Part shown: piece by piece, positions 13,310-18,929 of the stretch
How positions within the stretch are numbered: position 1 is the first letter of the stretch
Layout: the number at the start of each line of letters is the position of its first letter
NCBI GenBank assembly: GCA_021798575.1
Contig: JAJZGI010000019.1
Coordinates: 1-37,843, forward strand
From: Pseudomonadota bacterium
GTDB lineage: Bacteria > Pseudomonadota > Alphaproteobacteria > Acetobacterales > Acetobacteraceae
Direction: 5' to 3'
DNA: 37,843 nucleotides
Made by a program: the position numbers and the translations under genes
Notes under the pieces: generated by a model
Told to the model about the DNA's origin: nothing
What the model saw: only the letters and a program-made list of their open reading frames with translations
Databases searched by the model: none

Positions 13310-13380
13310 ACCATCGCGAAGCCATGCTTTCGCAACGAACCGCTATCATTTTCCCCCGGCTCCCCCACGTCGTCATCGCT
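13310..13380 (+). repeat. Decayed fourth copy of the promoter cassette
   Basis: The segment CGCTATCATTTTCCCC (13341-13356) matches the run leading into the -35 of the intact copy at 13476, but the TTGAC and TATAT hexamers are lost (CGGCT and CATCG). Upstream GCGAAGCCATGC resembles the end of the TCATTGCG repeat. It is degenerate, so the assignment is tentative. Confidence 0.35.
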
Positions 13381-13475
13381 TCGTCATGCGCAACCAGCGT
13401 CCCCACGCCGTCATGGCGGAACGAAGTGAAGCCATCCATCATGCTCACCCAACCCTAAACCGTATCATTTTCCCC

Positions 13476-13504
13476 TTGACTTCCCCGCACAATGTCATTA
13501 TATC
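13476..13504 (+). promoter_or_regulatory. Sigma70-like promoter, cassette copy 1 (predicted leaderless)
   Basis: TTGACT (13476-13481), 17-bp spacer, TATATC (13499-13504). The -10 ends only 7 nt before the ATG at 13512, so a normal start site falls on or next to the A of the ATG. The same hexamer spacing and the same -10 to ATG distance recur in copies 2 and 3. Confidence 0.7.
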
Positions 13505-13511
13505 TAACAAT

Positions 13512-13586
13512 ATGTCCGGCGATACCCAATCCACCCGCCTAGCAAAGTCAGATCGATCGGTCAGCATCCATGATTCACACAAATAA
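13512..13586 (+). CDS. Short leader ORF, MSG family (24 aa)
   Basis: It reads MSGDTQSTRLAKSDRSVSIH and ends at TAA 13584-13586. The first ten residues resemble the start of the orphan protein at 16028 (MSGEPINTRLY), so this may be the 5' end of that gene family cut off after the promoter. It is predicted to be translated from a leaderless transcript. It could instead be non-functional sequence carried with the promoter. Confidence 0.4.
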   Translation: MSGDTQSTRLAKSDRSVSIHDSHK

Positions 13587-13632
13587 AATGACGAGCAGGC
13601 TATTCCACATCACGCGCCGGTGCCCCAGATGA
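13570..13632 (+). pseudogene. Truncated MIH-type N-terminus (20 aa)
   Basis: The frame MIHTNKMTSRLFHITRRCPR ends in TGA. It matches the start of the exported protein at 14222 (MIHANQTRSKVHHITR) and then diverges exactly where the hydrophobic signal core should begin. Its TGA overlaps the ATG of the next small gene (ATGA at 13629). It looks like a remnant copied with the cassette, perhaps now serving translational coupling. Confidence 0.45.
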
Positions 13633-13709
13633 TCAGATCGATTCTCAAAATCATAATAATCGGCCTGGCCCTCCTTTTTTGCGCCGTTGCACTATTGAAA
13701 TATATTTGA
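13629..13709 (+). CDS. Small membrane peptide (26 aa)
   Basis: A 26-residue frame with an N-terminal Arg/Lys (MIRSILK) and one hydrophobic helix (IIIIGLALLFCAVALLKYI). It ends TGATG, overlapping the start codon of the next gene by 1 nt. The run of six T at 13675-13680 lies within the helix; one extra T would fuse it in frame to the next protein. It could be a membrane partner, or a broken anchor, of the downstream 116-aa protein. I recognise no family. Confidence 0.45.
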   Translation: MIRSILKIIIIGLALLFCAVALLKYI

Positions 13710-14059
13710 TGGACCAGGACAATACTTCCACCGGATTACGGGAGCTCCAGGCCATAAAAGCGAGAACCACCACGGACAAAGTCAAGCCAGGACCCTATGG
13801 GCTGCTTGAGGTTCGTCAGAAAGACCACCCCACATGGACCGGTGAGTATATTGGCTTGTTCGATAAAACCGCCATCGACATCACATGCGGAGACCCGAAA
13901 ATTCTCCAGCCTGATGGTACGCGGGATAACCTCTGTATCGGTTTTTATCCCTATGAAGACCTGGATATAGAAGAAAGTTTCAGCGTGCCAAACCTGCAAC
14001 ACTGGCAACGTATCGTTCAAAAAACTATCCATTTCCTGGACATTCATGAGGTCAAATAA
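13709..14059 (+). CDS. Hypothetical 116-aa protein, possible immunity-like
   Basis: It begins MDQDNTSTGLRELQAIKAR at an ATG that overlaps the stop of the small membrane peptide (TGATG). The protein is polar and acidic (ITCGDPKILQPDGTRDNLCI, YPYEDLDIEESF) with two cysteines and no signal peptide or membrane segment of its own. I recognise no family. Its AT-rich composition differs from the flanking core genes and it lies between two cassette copies, so it is probably acquired. Position before the exported protein/lysozyme pair suggests a second immunity-type gene, which is inference only. Confidence 0.55.
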   Translation: MDQDNTSTGLRELQAIKARTTTDKVKPGPYGLLEVRQKDHPTWTGEYIGLFDKTAIDITCGDPKILQPDGTRDNLCIGFYPYEDLDIEESFSVPNLQHWQRIVQKTIHFLDIHEVK

Positions 14060-14127
14060 TGCCGCTAGGCAAACCGTCATTCGAACGCGGCGAAGCAACC
14101 TAATCTCAACTAACTCATCATTTCCCC

Positions 14128-14156
14128 TTGACAATGCTATTAAATGTCATTATATA
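14128..14156 (+). promoter_or_regulatory. Consensus-like promoter, cassette copy 2 (predicted leaderless)
   Basis: TTGACA (14128-14133) is the perfect -35. A 17-bp spacer and TATATA (14151-14156) follow, with the ATG of the leader ORF 7 nt after the -10. By consensus match it is the strongest promoter of the three copies and would drive 14164-15891. Confidence 0.72.
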
Positions 14157-14163
14157 TAACAAT

Positions 14164-14208
14164 ATGTCTGGCAATAAGTTATTTGCCAGCGTGATAAAGC
14201 CAGATTGA
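14164..14208 (+). CDS. Leader ORF (14 aa) before the exported protein
   Basis: It reads MSGNKLFASVIKPD and stops with TGA at 14206-14208, 13 nt before the ATG at 14222. The gene at 14222 has no clear Shine-Dalgarno, so terminating ribosomes on this leaderless mini-ORF could re-initiate there. This is a hypothesis from spacing only. Confidence 0.35.
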   Translation: MSGNKLFASVIKPD

Positions 14209-14221
14209 TCGGTCAGCATCC

Positions 14222-14743
14222 ATGATTCACGCAAATCAAACAAGAAGCAAGGTTCACCACATCACGCGCCTGCTCCTCGCCGCACTGGGCATATTATTTT
14301 CGACAACGCATCAAAAATTGTTGGCCGCCACAGATGACGTCGAGTTCAACGAATGTGCTCAAGCACTGGACCAAAACCCAGGTACGCTGACAGCAGATTA
14401 TTGGCGTAAACCCCCTCTGGACGCGAAAGTTGCCCAGCTCGAAGACCCGGATCTTTACGGTGATGTGGTAATCAGATGGATGAGCCACAAAAACCAGAAC
14501 GGATCAACAACATTTGCGATCTTAACGCGCGACCCGGAGCCACAGCCCGAAAGTGATCCCGATGGTTTTGACCTGTTTTATGAAAAAGACGGTCATGTTT
14601 CAGAAAAAACCGGCGTCGGTGCGAATGGCTTTGCCTTTTCCAAGGAGAGCAACAAGGGTGTAAACGGTCTCATGTTCTGTACGCTCGGTAATCTCTCCAG
14701 ATTATGGGTATGGACAGGAAACAACTGGGAGGTTTCAAAATGA
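14222..14743 (+). CDS. Exported hypothetical protein, candidate immunity partner
   Basis: A 173-aa protein with a signal peptide. The basic N-region MIHANQTRSKVHHITR is followed by the hydrophobic core LLLAALGILFSTT and a cleavage region near LLAATDD. The mature part is acidic and has two cysteines (FNECAQAL and LMFCTLGN) that could form a periplasmic disulphide. It ends in a WVWTGNNWEVSK strand. No recognised family. Its stop overlaps the start of the lysozyme-like gene (ATGA), so the two are made together. An exported protein encoded with a peptidoglycan hydrolase is the layout of periplasmic immunity proteins for Tae/Tge-type effectors. A secreted lysozyme inhibitor is the other reading. 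Confidence 0.65.
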   Translation: MIHANQTRSKVHHITRLLLAALGILFSTTHQKLLAATDDVEFNECAQALDQNPGTLTADYWRKPPLDAKVAQLEDPDLYGDVVIRWMSHKNQNGSTTFAILTRDPEPQPESDPDGFDLFYEKDGHVSEKTGVGANGFAFSKESNKGVNGLMFCTLGNLSRLWVWTGNNWEVSK

Positions 14744-15891
14744 GCGGGTCAATCTATTCCAGTTCGCAATTTGCTGCCTATGCGGCAGCCATCCGTCAGC
14801 GCGAGTCTTCGGATGATTATTCTAAAGTAAACAAGAGCAAACACCTCGGCGCCTACCAATTTAGCTCGGAGGGTAGAAATACCGGATTGCAAGCGGCAGG
14901 ATTCCAGGACGCCAATGGAAATTGGACTGCCCTTGCCAAGAGGCTAGGCGTCGACTCCGTCGCAAGTTTTCTCTCAACCCCAACTGCCCAGGATATAGCC
15001 TTCCAGAATTATACAGAGAGGAATTTTTATTATCTACGTAATTTTCAATCTTATATCGGAAAAACAATCGGCGGGATCCATATCACCGAATCCGGCATGC
15101 TCGCGGGCGCGCATTTAGTAGGTCAGGGCTATGTTAAACGATTTTTAATTTCAAATGGAAAAATCATAAAACACGACCAAAACGGCACTCCCATCACCGA
15201 ATATATGATCAAATTCTCACACTTCAATTTCACCTTCCCAGCCAATTCATCTGGCTTCTCACCCGCCATAAACATCCAACCCGTCCTTGCGCCCAAGCAC
15301 CAGATGGCGCCCAGAAAACATCTCGATACCATATTAAAATTTGCCATTGAGGGCAAAACCCCCACCGATCTGCTGCACCACACCAAAGCACAAGCCCAAC
15401 TGGCGTCTAAAAAGCGCGCGCCCACACACATGATGCTCCACAACGTCCCCATAAACCCCCGCTCGTCGTTGTTATCCGTGTTGAATGCCGCCCAAAAACG
15501 CACGCCCGCACACATGATGCTCCACAACATCCCCATAAACCCCCGCTCGCAGTTGCTATCCGTGTTGAATGCCGCCAAAAACCCTGTCTCCGATCACGTG
15601 CATCTCCACACCATCCTCAGCAAATCCCGCCTACAGCATCGCTGTTTCGCGCCAGTCCGCAGCCGCATCGCCAGGAGCGCGCCACCCGCGCGCACCACTC
15701 ACCACGCGCCCGCCCCGCGCCCATCCAACAGTGCGTCATTCACGCCAAAAATCTATCATGACCCGGAGGGCAACCTCCCACCTTCCCTCGCTGAATATTT
15801 TTATCGGCTGTCCCGGCTCCCGCCCAATGGCGGCACCGCGTTCGACCCCTACCTCACCCCGACATGGGCCGGCCTGAAACTGCCAGGGTAG
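14740..15891 (+). CDS. Lysozyme/transglycosylase-like protein, candidate secreted effector
   Basis: A 383-aa protein. Residues about 8-165 resemble phage-type lysozyme/lytic transglycosylase domains: YAAAIRQRESSDDYSKVNK, with Glu22 the likely catalytic acid, LGAYQFSSEGRNTGLQAAGF, and GIHITESGMLAGAHLVG. The rest is basic and low-complexity, with two tandem 28-residue repeats (HMMLHNVPINPRSSLLSVLN and HMMLHNIPINPRSQLLSVLN) and a Pro-rich C-terminus. There is no signal peptide. Start ATG 14740 follows GGGAGG and overlaps the upstream stop. Other phage genes are absent, so an endolysin is unlikely. A toxin delivered to the periplasm of other cells, with the upstream gene as immunity, fits best but is not proven. 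Confidence 0.68.
   Translation: MSGSIYSSSQFAAYAAAIRQRESSDDYSKVNKSKHLGAYQFSSEGRNTGLQAAGFQDANGNWTALAKRLGVDSVASFLSTPTAQDIAFQNYTERNFYYLRNFQSYIGKTIGGIHITESGMLAGAHLVGQGYVKRFLISNGKIIKHDQNGTPITEYMIKFSHFNFTFPANSSGFSPAINIQPVLAPKHQMAPRKHLDTILKFAIEGKTPTDLLHHTKAQAQLASKKRAPTHMMLHNVPINPRSSLLSVLNAAQKRTPAHMMLHNIPINPRSQLLSVLNAAKNPVSDHVHLHTILSKSRLQHRCFAPVRSRIARSAPPARTTHHAPAPRPSNSASFTPKIYHDPEGNLPPSLAEYFYRLSRLPPNGGTAFDPYLTPTWAGLKLPG
15410..15577 (+). repeat. Two tandem 84-bp coding repeats
   Basis: Units 15410-15493 and 15494-15577 are near-identical and in frame (28 codons). The ATG of ATGATGCTCC recurs at 15430 and 15514. A weaker third unit may precede them (HLDTIL...LLHHTK). There are no spacers, so this is not a CRISPR array; it probably arose by slippage or duplication within the effector tail. 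Confidence 0.8.
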
Positions 15892-15926
15892 CCCGCCATC
15901 GCTACCACAAGTTAATCTAACATTTT

Positions 15927-16045
15927 GTCATTGCGAGCGCAGCGAAGCAATCCATCCCCGTCAAACCACCCAAAACCGCCCAAATTCCCCCTTGACTCCC
16001 CCACAAAATGTCACTATAACTAACAGCATGTCCGGTGAGCCAATC
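15927..16045 (+). repeat. Promoter cassette copy 3 with intact dispersed repeat
   Basis: GTCATTGCGAGCGCAGCG (15927-) continuing to GAAGCAATCCATCC is the classic form of the alphaproteobacterial dispersed repeat. It is followed at 65 nt by TTGACT, a 17-bp spacer and TATAAC (15992-16020), then ATGTCCGG at 16028. Here the leader continues into a long open frame, so this copy probably shows the parental arrangement. Confidence 0.8.
15992..16020 (+). promoter_or_regulatory. Promoter of the orphan gene at 16028 (predicted leaderless)
   Basis: TTGACT (15992-15997) and TATAAC (16015-16020) are 17 bp apart, and the ATG is 7 nt beyond the -10. The GTCAC/GTCAT just before the -10 and the TAACA after it are conserved in the other two copies. 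Confidence 0.7.
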
Positions 16046-16642
16046 AACACGCGCCTCTACCACATCGTCATGTACCTCGTGCAGTCGCTGGGCAACGGCG
16101 CCCAGCGGGTCAACATGCCGCACTCGCTGTGCCAACTCCTCACCAACCGTCTGGTCAGCCTCACCCACCGTTTGCGCATCCTCATCGAGCGCGGGCCACT
16201 TCCCACGCGCCCACCCCGCACCACGCCGCGCGCAACGCCCGCAAACCCAAAGCCCAGCACGATCGAATTTCACCCACCCACCAACTTCGCCTGGCTGCTG
16301 CACCTGTTCCCCAACTCCGGCGTCGCGGTCGCCCACTTCCAGCTCAAAACATTGCTGGAAGAGCCCGAGACCCAATCCCTCATCGCCGCCCACCCGACTC
16401 TCGCCCGCAGCATCCGCCCACTCTGCCGCATGGTCGGCCTCAAAACCCCCGCCTGCCTCAAGCTGCCCTCAAGGCCGCGCATAAAACACGCGCCACCCAC
16501 GCCAGCGCCCGAAAAAACCCCACAACCCCCAAAACCACCTCGCCGAATCTGGCACCCGGCCCGACCGCCCAGGCCGATGACCCCGGCCGAGGCACAACTC
16601 GCCGCCCGCCAGTTCTTCAACCCCCGTGATTTTTATCTCTAA
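16028..16642 (+). CDS. Orphan Pro/Arg-rich protein, MSG family
   Basis: A 204-aa basic protein. The N-terminal part (MSGEPINTRLYHIVMYLVQS, then NMPHSLCQLLTNRLVSLTHR) looks helical. A Pro-rich linker follows (about 60-85), then a second helical part (HPPTNFAWLLHLFPNSGVAV ... HPTLARSIRPLCRMVGL) and a Pro-rich tail ending MTPAEAQLAARQFFNPRDFYL. I recognise no named domain and no signal peptide. The plus strand is strongly C-rich over G, as in the tail of the preceding gene. The ATG 16028 is chosen because the promoter -10 lies 7 nt upstream. It may be a lineage-restricted multicopy family whose 5' end has been copied to 13512 and 14164. Confidence 0.6.
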   Translation: MSGEPINTRLYHIVMYLVQSLGNGAQRVNMPHSLCQLLTNRLVSLTHRLRILIERGPLPTRPPRTTPRATPANPKPSTIEFHPPTNFAWLLHLFPNSGVAVAHFQLKTLLEEPETQSLIAAHPTLARSIRPLCRMVGLKTPACLKLPSRPRIKHAPPTPAPEKTPQPPKPPRRIWHPARPPRPMTPAEAQLAARQFFNPRDFYL

Positions 16643-16672: not shown

Positions 16673-17623
16673 TTACGATATCGTATCAATAAAGCGAAGG
16701 TAATCCGCGGTATCCAGAATCTGTTCATCCAGTCCTCTCAGCGCCACACCAGCCCGCGTCGCGTGCAACGCAAAGGCGGCGCCATCGCCCAAATAATCAT
16801 CCGCCACGCCGTCCCGCCACTCCGGGCGCACAATCTCGACCCGCCGGCCCAATAATGCCCCGGCCCGCAGCGCCAGCGCGCCGATCTCGACTCTCTCCCC
16901 CGCGCTGTCAAAAACCTCCGTAACAACATTCTTCAACATAAAACCCAGCGCGATGTTCAGCACATCCGCCACATGCGCATAACCCCGCCACACCGGATGC
17001 GCCGCGCGCAGCACCACCTGTCGGCCCCGGGTGATGTCGCCGATGATACAGGCCAGCGCATAGGAATCGAGCTTGTTGATGAACGGCCCTGCGAGGTTGA
17101 ACACGCGCATACGCACCGCGGGAAAGCCCAGGCTTTGCCCAAGCTCGCCAAAAACCACCTCGTCCGCGTGTTTCAGCGCGCCGTAGGGGTTCTGGCCCGC
17201 ATCCGTTCCCGCATACACCGCGCCGGAGGAGGGATTAAAAACCCCCATCGCGCCGTTGCGTCTCAAAAAATCCTGCACCAACGTAGAGATTTTCCGGTTC
17301 TCACGCATATACTCAGCCAGTTCCATGCGGCTGGCATGCTCGCGGGTCAAAAACGCAAAATGCAGCACCAGCGCATCCGGCAATGCAAGTTGGGTGATCG
17401 CCGTCAGTGGCCGAATGGCAACCAATCGCCCAGAGCGCAGCGCCATCTCGCGCGCCCGCGCGCCAAACGCATGAACAACCCGCGGGAAATCATCGCCCAG
17501 CGTATGATCCAGCATCTCCAGCGCAGCCCGGCCCAGCCACCCGCCGGCCCCGGTCACCACCACCGGCGTTTTTTGTCGCCGCAGCGCGTCGGAAAATTCC
17601 GTCTGAAATTCAAGTATTTTCAT
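16673..17623 (-). CDS. NAD-dependent sugar epimerase/reductase
   Basis: A 316-aa extended SDR. It has the Rossmann motif TGAGGWLG near residue 28 and an SDR-type NPSSGAVYAG strand. The active-site YxxxK is probably in NPYGALKHADE. Binding-site residues continue in MRVFNLAGPFINKLDSYAL. It is last in the rfb-like run and overlaps rfbH by 14 nt. In yersiniose-type pathways an NAD(P)H reductase (YerF) follows the YerE ThDP enzyme, and this gene is the only candidate here. Alternatives are an E3-independent dideoxysugar reductase or a C-epimerase. Start ATG 17623 (MKILEFQTEF). Confidence 0.75.
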   Translation of the reverse strand: MKILEFQTEFSDALRRQKTPVVVTGAGGWLGRAALEMLDHTLGDDFPRVVHAFGARAREMALRSGRLVAIRPLTAITQLALPDALVLHFAFLTREHASRMELAEYMRENRKISTLVQDFLRRNGAMGVFNPSSGAVYAGTDAGQNPYGALKHADEVVFGELGQSLGFPAVRMRVFNLAGPFINKLDSYALACIIGDITRGRQVVLRAAHPVWRGYAHVADVLNIALGFMLKNVVTEVFDSAGERVEIGALALRAGALLGRRVEIVRPEWRDGVADDYLGDGAAFALHATRAGVALRGLDEQILDTADYLRFIDTIS

Positions 17624-18929
17624 GGATAAATTGCGCGAAACAGGCGAGCACATAGTCCAGATGTACCGCCGTCAGGCCAGGATACACACCGATCCAAAAG
17701 GTCGAGCGCATCACGAGGTCGGCATTTTTCGTCTCGCCCGAGACACGAAAGTTCCGCCCCTGCATATAGGGCTGGTGGATAAGATTACCGCCGAACAGAT
17801 ACCGCGTCGCGATCCGCGCGTCATTCAGGTACGCCACGAGCGCGCGGCGGGTAAACGGCGCGCCGGGTCGAACCGTGAGCGGAAAGCCGAACCAGGAGGG
17901 CTCGGAATCAGCCGTCGCCTCCGGCAGAATGAAAAATTCCTCCCATGCTTTCATCCCCGCCTGCAATCTGGCAAAATTCGCCCGCCGGACTTGGATGAAA
18001 TCATCCAGCCGGTCGAGCTGCCGCACGCCGACAGCCGCCTGCATGTCGGTCATCTTCAGATTATAGCCCAGATGGCTATAGATATATTTATGGTCATAGC
18101 CTTCGGGCAACCCGCCCAGCTGCCAGTAGAAGCGCTTCTTGCAGGTATTGTCATTACCCGGCGCGCACCAGCAATCCCGCCCCCAGTCCCGCAACGATTC
18201 CAGAATCCGCTTGAACTGGCTGGATCGGGTGAAAACCGCGCCGCCCTCGCCGGTGGTGATATGGTGCGCCGGGTAGAAACTGAGCGTGGAGATATCCCCG
18301 AACCCGCCGACCGCCCGCCCATCGTAGCGCGCGCCCAGCGCATCGCAACAATCCTCGACCACGCGCAGATGATATTTCTGCGCGATCGACATGATGGCCG
18401 ACAGGTCGAACGGATTGCCCAGCGTATGCGCGAGCACAATGGCGCGAGTACGCGGGCCGACCGCCCGCTCGATCTCGTCCACCGCGATATTATAGGTGGG
18501 CAGCGAGACATCCACAAACACCGGCACCAGCCCGTTCTGCAATATCGGGTTCACGGTGGTGGGGAAACCCGTGGCGCAGGTGATCACCTCATCGCCGGGC
18601 TGCAACGCATCAGCACCCAGCATGTGGCTGGTGAGAGCACTCACCGCGAGAAGGTTCGCGGACGATCCGGAGTTCACGCTGAGCACATAGCGGGTCTCCA
18701 ACACCTGCGCGAGCCTGGCCTCAAACGCATCATTGAACCGCCCGGTGGTGAGCCAGAATTCCAGCGCGCTATCCACCAGGCTCACCATCTCCGGCGCGCC
18801 ATACACCTTGCCGGATACCGGCACGGCGGAGATCCTTTCATCGAAATTTTTGGTCCCATGCGCAAGCCCGGCATAGCGGGCGACCAGCGCCAGGATCTCA
18901 TTGCGTATGACGTCGGCTTCATCATTCAT
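17610..18929 (-). CDS. rfbH: CDP-4-keto-6-deoxy-D-glucose-3-dehydrase (E1)
   Basis: A 439-aa DegT-fold PMP/[2Fe-2S] enzyme that removes the C3 hydroxyl of CDP-6-deoxy-4-keto-glucose. The internal-aldimine Lys of ordinary aminotransferases is replaced by His in SFYPAHHITTGEGG (His222), diagnostic of E1. The iron-sulfur ligands are all present with exact family spacing: Cys195-X57-Cys253-X-Cys255-X7-Cys263. Start ATG 18929 overlaps the rfbG stop by 8 nt; longer upstream reading is a shadow of rfbG. A flavin/[2Fe-2S] reductase (E3, AscD/DdhD) is not in the window, so electrons must come from elsewhere. Confidence 0.95.
   Translation of the reverse strand: MNDEADVIRNEILALVARYAGLAHGTKNFDERISAVPVSGKVYGAPEMVSLVDSALEFWLTTGRFNDAFEARLAQVLETRYVLSVNSGSSANLLAVSALTSHMLGADALQPGDEVITCATGFPTTVNPILQNGLVPVFVDVSLPTYNIAVDEIERAVGPRTRAIVLAHTLGNPFDLSAIMSIAQKYHLRVVEDCCDALGARYDGRAVGGFGDISTLSFYPAHHITTGEGGAVFTRSSQFKRILESLRDWGRDCWCAPGNDNTCKKRFYWQLGGLPEGYDHKYIYSHLGYNLKMTDMQAAVGVRQLDRLDDFIQVRRANFARLQAGMKAWEEFFILPEATADSEPSWFGFPLTVRPGAPFTRRALVAYLNDARIATRYLFGGNLIHQPYMQGRNFRVSGETKNADLVMRSTFWIGVYPGLTAVHLDYVLACFAQFIHENT

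Follow-up and report, generated by a model that had tools for sequence, protein, structure and literature searches.

A REP-linked dispersed gene unit with a putative leaderless promoter in an Acidocella-like genome

Repeated promoter cassettes and a complete unit in the window

The window analyzed here, a stretch of 37,843 nucleotides (nt) of contig JAJZGI010000019.1 (assembly GCA_021798575.1), carries a repeated promoter segment whose last copy leads into an orphan gene flanked by a repetitive extragenic palindrome (REP) upstream and a short palindrome downstream. Its host genome (hereafter the own genome, G000) comprises 2.37 Mb in 95 contigs and is 96% complete as given. It is taken as Acidocella-like from the relatives of the neighboring rlmB gene, for which the closest match (87%) is from Rhodovastum atsumiense and many other top matches are from Acidocella. 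C-numbers denote contigs and units of the own genome, G-numbers genomes of the genus, and L-numbers single loci. The complete unit and the partial copies of its front end (cassettes) consist of the following features:

13310..13371, + strand: decayed 5' part of a unit, with the right arm of a REP, a spacer, and a broken -35 box, recognized by eye against other units, with a weak BLAST match
13409..13438, + strand: REP of cassette 1 with a CGTC tag, not picked up by the arm-pairing script
13476..13511, + strand: promoter of cassette 1 (-35 at 13476-13481, -10 at 13499-13504), pattern match
13512..13586, + strand: 24-amino-acid frame from the putatively leaderless ATG, beginning like the orphan protein (MSGDTQSTRL), with weak similarity past ATGTCYGG
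14075..14102, + strand: degenerate CGTC REP of cassette 2, seen by eye and not accepted by the script
14128..14163, + strand: promoter of cassette 2, pattern match
14164..14208, + strand: 14-amino-acid mini-frame from the putatively leaderless ATG, ending 13 nt before the next ATG
15926..15954, + strand: REP of unit 3 with a TGTC tag, found by the arm-pairing script
15992..16027, + strand: promoter of the complete unit (-35 at 15992-15997, -10 at 16015-16020)
16028..16642, + strand: orphan gene, 204 amino acids, complete family member found by profile search
16673..16686, no strand: unit-end palindrome TTACGATATCGTAT, one mismatch, 30 nt past the orphan stop

The pattern TTGACN-N17-TATAWM-N7-ATGTCYGG has exactly three matches in the window (13476, 14128, and 15992) and none in 100 shuffles, and a relaxed form (one mismatch allowed, TCYGG dropped) still finds only the same three sites. 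An earlier note on this DNA had described three cassettes with identical spacing of -35, -10, and ATG, which is borne out, and the ATGs lie at 13512, 14164, and 16028 as it had placed them. The likeness of copies 1 and 2, which the note put at about 200 bp, was estimated generously: 78% identity holds over a single ungapped block of 128 nt (13491-13618 and 14143-14270), and past it only gapped similarity is found. Copies 1 and 3 are 75% identical over 104 nt. The decayed copy that the note reported at 13310 looks real by eye, having CTTTCGCAACGAACCGC...TTTTCCCC (about 13310-13370) in common with other units, but BLAST gives just a 19-nt match with an expect value (E) of 2.8.

The segment recurs throughout the genome. 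A search with positions 13410-13620 (211 bp), of the kind that the note had suggested, yields 42 matches including itself, 32 of them at E <1e-3, and the pattern TTGAC-N18-TANNAYTAACNNNATG with at most one mismatch occurs at 31 places genome-wide, against none for the backwards pattern. Among the 31, 29 are N-terminal ends of one gene family and the other two are C82:8241 and window position 13476; these genome-wide matches bear out the proposal that the repeated segment is the 5' end of a multicopy orphan gene family. Spacing varies within the whole family, since unit C83 has 16 nt rather than 17 between the boxes; units C1 and C25a do not fit the promoter pattern, and unit C40 has ATA in place of ATG. 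Only 7 nt separate the end of the -10 box from the ATG, which puts the expected start of transcription on the AUG or beside it and would make the transcript leaderless; this expected position follows the usual sigma70 spacing. A conserved TA-rich box (like GGTAAT) was also seen by eye shortly 5' of the ATG of hisG in most of the loci read from genus relatives (L199-L221), which suggests that hisG may be leaderless in the genus.

The orphan gene family, its two ends, and its genomic placement

A family profile finds 45 matches in the own genome: 21 complete genes (C2 from codon 2), 12 N-terminal ends, and 12 C-terminal ends. All 24 partial matches abut contig ends, giving 33 N-terminal and 33 C-terminal ends and therefore about 33 copies, and the breaks in the assembly at these points are probably due to the repeat copies. 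The 21 complete proteins have 196 to 204 amino acids, an isoelectric point of 11.1 to 11.8, and 13.5 to 18% proline. Their frames contain no internal stop; the C-terminal pieces C58 and C93 have one in-frame TGA in common. Over 210 pairs, the ratio of nonsynonymous to synonymous substitution rates (dN/dS) has a median of 0.42 (range, 0.15 to 0.73) and the median synonymous divergence (dS) is 0.63; the complete copies are under purifying selection. In 30 of the 210 pairs (about 2 expected), the longest identical run exceeds what codon shuffling produces at p 0.01, an excess to which regional differences in conservation within the gene could contribute, and C60 and C48 have 218 identical nt in a row at 90% identity overall; we read these runs as signs of gene conversion between copies. 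Searches of NCBIfam, PHROGs, and PADLOC with the window copy returned nothing, and a Pfam scan of all 21 complete proteins up to E 5 returned only three unrelated families (best E, 0.042). The PDB holds nothing better than E 0.32. A known transposon, a known mobile or defense gene, and a structured RNA are all unsupported as identities of the unit, the sole Rfam match (E, 0.92) lying far below the cutoff.

Each unit consists of a CGTC-tagged REP, the promoter, the orphan gene of about 200 codons, some 30 nt of spacer, and the palindrome TTACGATATCGTAA. Among the 39 promoter copies, which belong to 32 units and 7 cassettes (C2 is truncated), the script finds 28 with a REP, whose end lies 50 to 89 nt before the ATG; REPs that the script missed are seen by eye in at least win1, C15, and C7. 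The tag of the 28 REPs is CGTC in 19, TGTC in 4, and something else in 5. Their stems open with AT in most cases, and a CCA tail is present in 26 (CTA in C14, GCA in C6), although the search pattern itself wanted a similar tail. One stem pair is T-A in 11, C-G in 8, G-C in 7, and unpaired in 2, so that Watson-Crick pairing is kept in 26 of 28 while the bases change (the script favors paired candidates). The inner part of the hairpin differs from copy to copy and is longer in many. At the other end, the palindrome (0 to 3 mismatches) begins 28 to 31 nt past the stop in all 25 readable 3' ends, and each of its 21 genome-wide sites with at most one mismatch lies, by coordinates, at a family 3' end. 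Flanks beyond the units are unrelated, and homology ends at fixed points.

A pattern for the REP right arm matches 27 places in the own genome, of which 22 lie, by reading, just upstream of units or cassettes; this count leans toward units because the pattern was taken from unit REPs. The remaining five comprise three true REPs (C47, C75, and one past the C80 palindrome) and two sites in long open frames (C21, C69). At C80 (L133), the REP on the 3' side, past the unit palindrome, is apparently a dimer. A background sample of unit-free own DNA (390,715 bp) contains no match to the strict REP pattern (on sample plus window, the reversed-sequence control gave 2 rows against 4 real ones, every one of the latter in the window) and, for a looser pattern, a single loose match (L237), which has no CCA tail. 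The DNA of relatives was scanned as 31 loci (234,725 bp), where the sole both-arm REP match is a dimer in L168 beside the only homologue there, and as 174,225 bp of other genus loci, where no both-arm match was found. By the patterns used, CGTC REPs appear rare away from units and cassettes; linkage of REP and gene is observed in the own genome and in one metagenome-assembled genome (MAG), the source of L168.

The earlier note had stated that its reading would fail if related genomes carried no further copies. At the genus level these are nearly lacking, the profile matching only G024 among 37 other genomes, and one further MAG has a homologue. The G024 homologue is 37% identical over residues 30-193 and lies, by eye, before the start of hisG. 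Two hisG contigs (L061 and L205) fall in this one bin, one of them with the orphan homologue and the palindrome, and a PF01634 match on another contig means that the contig of the homologue may belong to another organism (mixed bin). The homologue in L168 (MAS3.bin7, JAJZNE010000178.1), presumably from a member of the Acetobacteraceae, has 220 amino acids and is 40% identical over about 70 aligned residues. Its promoter reads TTGCCC, 18 nt, TATAAC, 7 nt, GTG, with a head-to-head CGTC REP dimer 94 to 149 nt upstream and a convergent gene downstream. A class-wide search that scored only 8 candidates per genome found the family in the own genome alone out of 385; no relative of the orphan turned up among viral contigs, phages, or plasmids, and the orphan profile gave no confirmed match in the genome contig collection. 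Such negatives are weak because L168, from the latter collection, contains a homologue that was met by chance. Two further candidates were dropped: a loose match to an orphan-like frame in L199, whose frame looks wrong, and a G011 match (34%; E, 8e-4) that contains a stop, was not found by the profile, and is taken as chance. An ancestral locus at hisG was likewise rejected, the palindrome with fewer than three mismatches occurring in none of the 23 hisG loci read (of 25 matches, without L222 and L223; L211 and L214 extend only 236 to 257 nt upstream). The own genome (96% complete) has no HisG match, and the gene may lie in an assembly gap.

Both neighbors are convergent in 13 of the 16 copies readable on both sides and assigned by hand (not in C95, C11, and C36) and in 10 of 15 by script alone, as compared with 29 of 160 gaps (minimum length, 30 bp) in the background sample by a similar script. 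Hand orientation overrode the script for C12, C40, C20a, and C70, where longer frames were preferred, and, unfavorably to the reading proposed below, for C95; script "up" values for C2, C57a, C65, C89, and C43 were short-flank artifacts and were dropped. Between icd and tolC, 876 bp (stop to stop) including a unit separate the genes in the own genome, whereas the same gap without a unit measures 84 bp in G017 and 57 bp in G035, each with an ordinary-looking terminator after icd by eye. The exact junction is unreadable because the gaps have diverged. The pair also looks adjacent in G010, whose sequence was not read, and the flanks of C25a, C48, C68, and C1 were not found adjacent in relatives. 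In L175 and L188 (G012 and G023), the space downstream of icd is occupied by a different repeat (GAGCGAACCTCAAACGATC...), so this gap would seem to attract repeats.

Origin and maintenance of the unit

We propose, with moderate confidence, that the cassettes are the 5' parts of a single-gene unit that has become dispersed and is made up of a CGTC REP, a promoter predicted to start on the AUG or beside it, a gene for a small, very basic orphan protein, and a palindrome on the 3' side. Its REP and palindrome would be the DNA ends by which the unit moved, and the protein most likely binds one or the other. Carrying its own expression signals, the unit would work wherever it lands; it may have spread long ago in the lineage, settling for the most part between convergent genes, where no promoter would be disrupted, and its copies would later have been retained as working genes and partly homogenized by gene conversion. 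Recombination at the common 5' end could have placed the promoter before effector/immunity-like genes. With a start codon joined so closely to the promoter, no ribosome-binding site is required, and such a promoter should work anywhere, which would explain both the dispersal and the reuse of the front end.

Several observations weigh against this proposal. The HUH motif is absent in all 21 members, which match no recombinase family, and no target-site duplication or terminal inverted repeat is demonstrated for the unit. The icd/tolC gap is the sole occupied/empty pair compared, units C1, C57, and C86 have no recognizable REP, and a few true REPs (C47 and C75) stand away from units. The palindrome of the G024 homologue, 28 nt past the stop, is accompanied by a different promoter and no CGTC REP, and the L168 homologue has an 18-nt spacer and no such palindrome that could be seen. 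Finally, three contig-end pairs have identical coding sequences and different 3' spacers and palindromes (two strongly, C14/C95 slightly), so that movement looks old and the present state would be one of gene conversion; part of the identity seen right at contig ends stems from assembly overlap.

A more conventional history, in which an ordinary lineage-specific family grew by duplication and ectopic recombination and REPs settled independently in the same convergent gaps, is the best-surviving alternative. It would accommodate the unusually long identical runs in 30 of 210 pairs, the coding identity without 3'-end identity, the median dS of 0.63, and the three units and the G024 homologue that lack a REP, and REPs are known to favor gaps near gene 3' ends (PMC3733652, from the portion available). 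It is harder to reconcile with unrelated flanks and homology that ends at fixed points, with the absence of the strict REP pattern from the unit-free sample (with the window added, the reversed control gave 2 rows and the real sequence 4, none of these outside the window), and with the position of the only both-arm match in the 31 relatives' loci, which adjoins the only homologue; we consider this history unlikely but a serious contender. Retention of the unit chiefly as a bidirectional terminator, or as an insulator separating convergent genes, with the protein secondary, would suit the convergent placement, the ordinary-looking terminators of G017 and G035 where the own genome has a unit, and the window palindrome, which also supplies the stop codon of the convergent gene at 16673..17653. 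This explanation is very improbable, since the protein is under purifying selection with all 21 complete frames open and the palindrome region folds at about -8 kcal/mol with no U-run on either strand.

Cassettes before other genes and comparison with known systems

The dispersed unit proposed above also has to accommodate the promoter copies that stand before other genes. In the window these genes, together with the neighbor of the complete unit, are as follows:

13629..14059, + strand: remnant of an immunity-like gene (role inferred), a 26-amino-acid hydrophobic peptide and then a 116-amino-acid frame from 13709
14222..14743, + strand: 173-amino-acid frame with a hydrophobic N terminus, immunity-like (role inferred from place), with a similar frame in C76 by eye
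14740..15891, + strand: peptidoglycan-hydrolase-like effector candidate with a lysozyme-like N-terminal part
16673..17653, - strand: convergent neighbor, epimerase-like (named by eye)

The claim that the promoter captures accessory genes holds in part: seven copies precede nonfamily genes, but the usual cargo is the orphan gene, and the others make up 7 of about 40. The seven cassettes lie in four contigs (window 13476 and 14128, two each in C82 and C76, one in C6), and the genes after them are mostly related to each other. By place and hydrophobic N termini these genes look immunity-like, and no family matched them, the 14222..14743 frame included. The immunity-like gene is followed by an effector-like gene in the window and C82 and by a 234-amino-acid frame in C6, and C76 meets the contig end. 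One immunity-like gene is unbroken in C6 only, with stops in C76 and C82 and its first part absent in the window; the relative of the 13629..14059 remnant at C6:794-1504 is a single open frame of 237 amino acids. At C82:8241, the cassette ATG itself opens an unrelated 270-amino-acid frame. Past ATGTCYGG, similarity between cassette coding and the orphan gene is weak (shuffle p, 0.02 to 0.63 for the seven); judged by sequence comparison, what the cassettes surely have in common is the promoter with the first codons and, in several, the REP.

The frames at 14222-14743 and 14740-15891 form an effector/immunity-like pair in which the start overlaps the stop (ATGA). The N-terminal part of the effector candidate (searched as 14737-15888, one residue early) matches a PHROG tail lysozyme (E, 9e-9), and the candidate resembles plasmid genes, several of them annotated as peptidoglycan hydrolases; a PDB search gave no match. 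Its C-terminal part, which contains an 84-nt tandem duplication (15410-15577), is common to C82:9952-10359 and C70:185-586, and each of the three copies is immediately followed by an orphan unit.

The promoter is thus reused, yet solely in effector/immunity-like loci. It is least probable of all that the segment acts independently as a mobile promoter taking up any gene, with the orphan family merely its commonest cargo: seven copies do precede nonfamily genes, one directly starting the 270-amino-acid frame, but all seven lie in four contigs within arrays of related genes and may stem from one or two captures, and just 2 of 31 pattern matches are not orphan N-terminal ends. A 2012 study by Matus-Garcia et al., "Promoter propagation in prokaryotes," is said to deal with such mobile promoters. 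The seven cassettes do show what characterizes these elements, the same promoter before nonhomologous genes (PMC8049555, in the part available), but the present promoter is normally part of a unit that includes its own gene and a 3' palindrome. A promoter that carries start point and start codon could make any fused gene expressible without a ribosome-binding site.

Starts at or within a few nucleotides of the start codon are, in the available portions of two reports, widespread in alphaproteobacteria: 119 of 2,675 pairs of transcription start site and gene are leaderless in Zymomonas (PMC7566282), and leaderless transcripts make up 7% of mRNAs in Methylorubrum (PMC9320726). Those starts were mapped, whereas ours are deduced from spacing. 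The unit departs from insertion sequences in that it has no transposase match and its two ends are unlike, one being a REP and the other a different palindrome. REPtrons, in which a REP-associated tyrosine transposase (RAYT) gene lies beside REPs, resemble it, so far as the sources available describe them, in having a gene next to REPs, but here there are no HUH motif, no family match, and about 33 gene copies in one genome; the first two points rule out the orphan gene as a RAYT. The unit is best named a REP-linked dispersed gene unit, a variant of REP-associated genes.

The closest comparison is with the CGTC REPs of Di Nocera, De Gregorio, and Rocco (2013; PMC3733652), which are described, in the part of the paper available, as having an unpaired CGTC, TGTC, or CCTC tag, a stem of 8 to 9 bp beginning with AT, a loop of 4 to 5 nt, and a CCA tail, as favoring gaps next to gene 3' ends, as having no dedicated transposase, and as missing from Acetobacteraceae. 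Within the available text of the later literature searched, no partner gene is named for them, PMC6006769 and PMC12306157 merely citing the 2013 paper. Given that CGTC REPs were described without a dedicated transposase, the orphan gene is a testable candidate partner; we think it rather improbable, though, that it is the missing one, so that REP, leaderless gene, and palindrome would be mobile as a unit and the protein, as a mobility or end-binding factor of a new kind, would spread or maintain CGTC REPs. As these REPs are reported to be widespread in bacteria, a gene family beside them would give the transposase question a concrete, testable protein. The REPs described here agree with CGTC REPs in the unpaired CGTC/TGTC tag, in most cases apparently the AT stem opening, the CCA tail, the intergenic position near 3' ends, the head-to-head dimers in some cases, and dispersal mainly into unidirectional and convergent gaps, yet 22 of 27 right-arm matches adjoin units or cassettes. 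They differ in that they occur in an Acidocella-like genome, that many have inner hairpins longer than the stated loops, and that they lie mostly beside one orphan gene.

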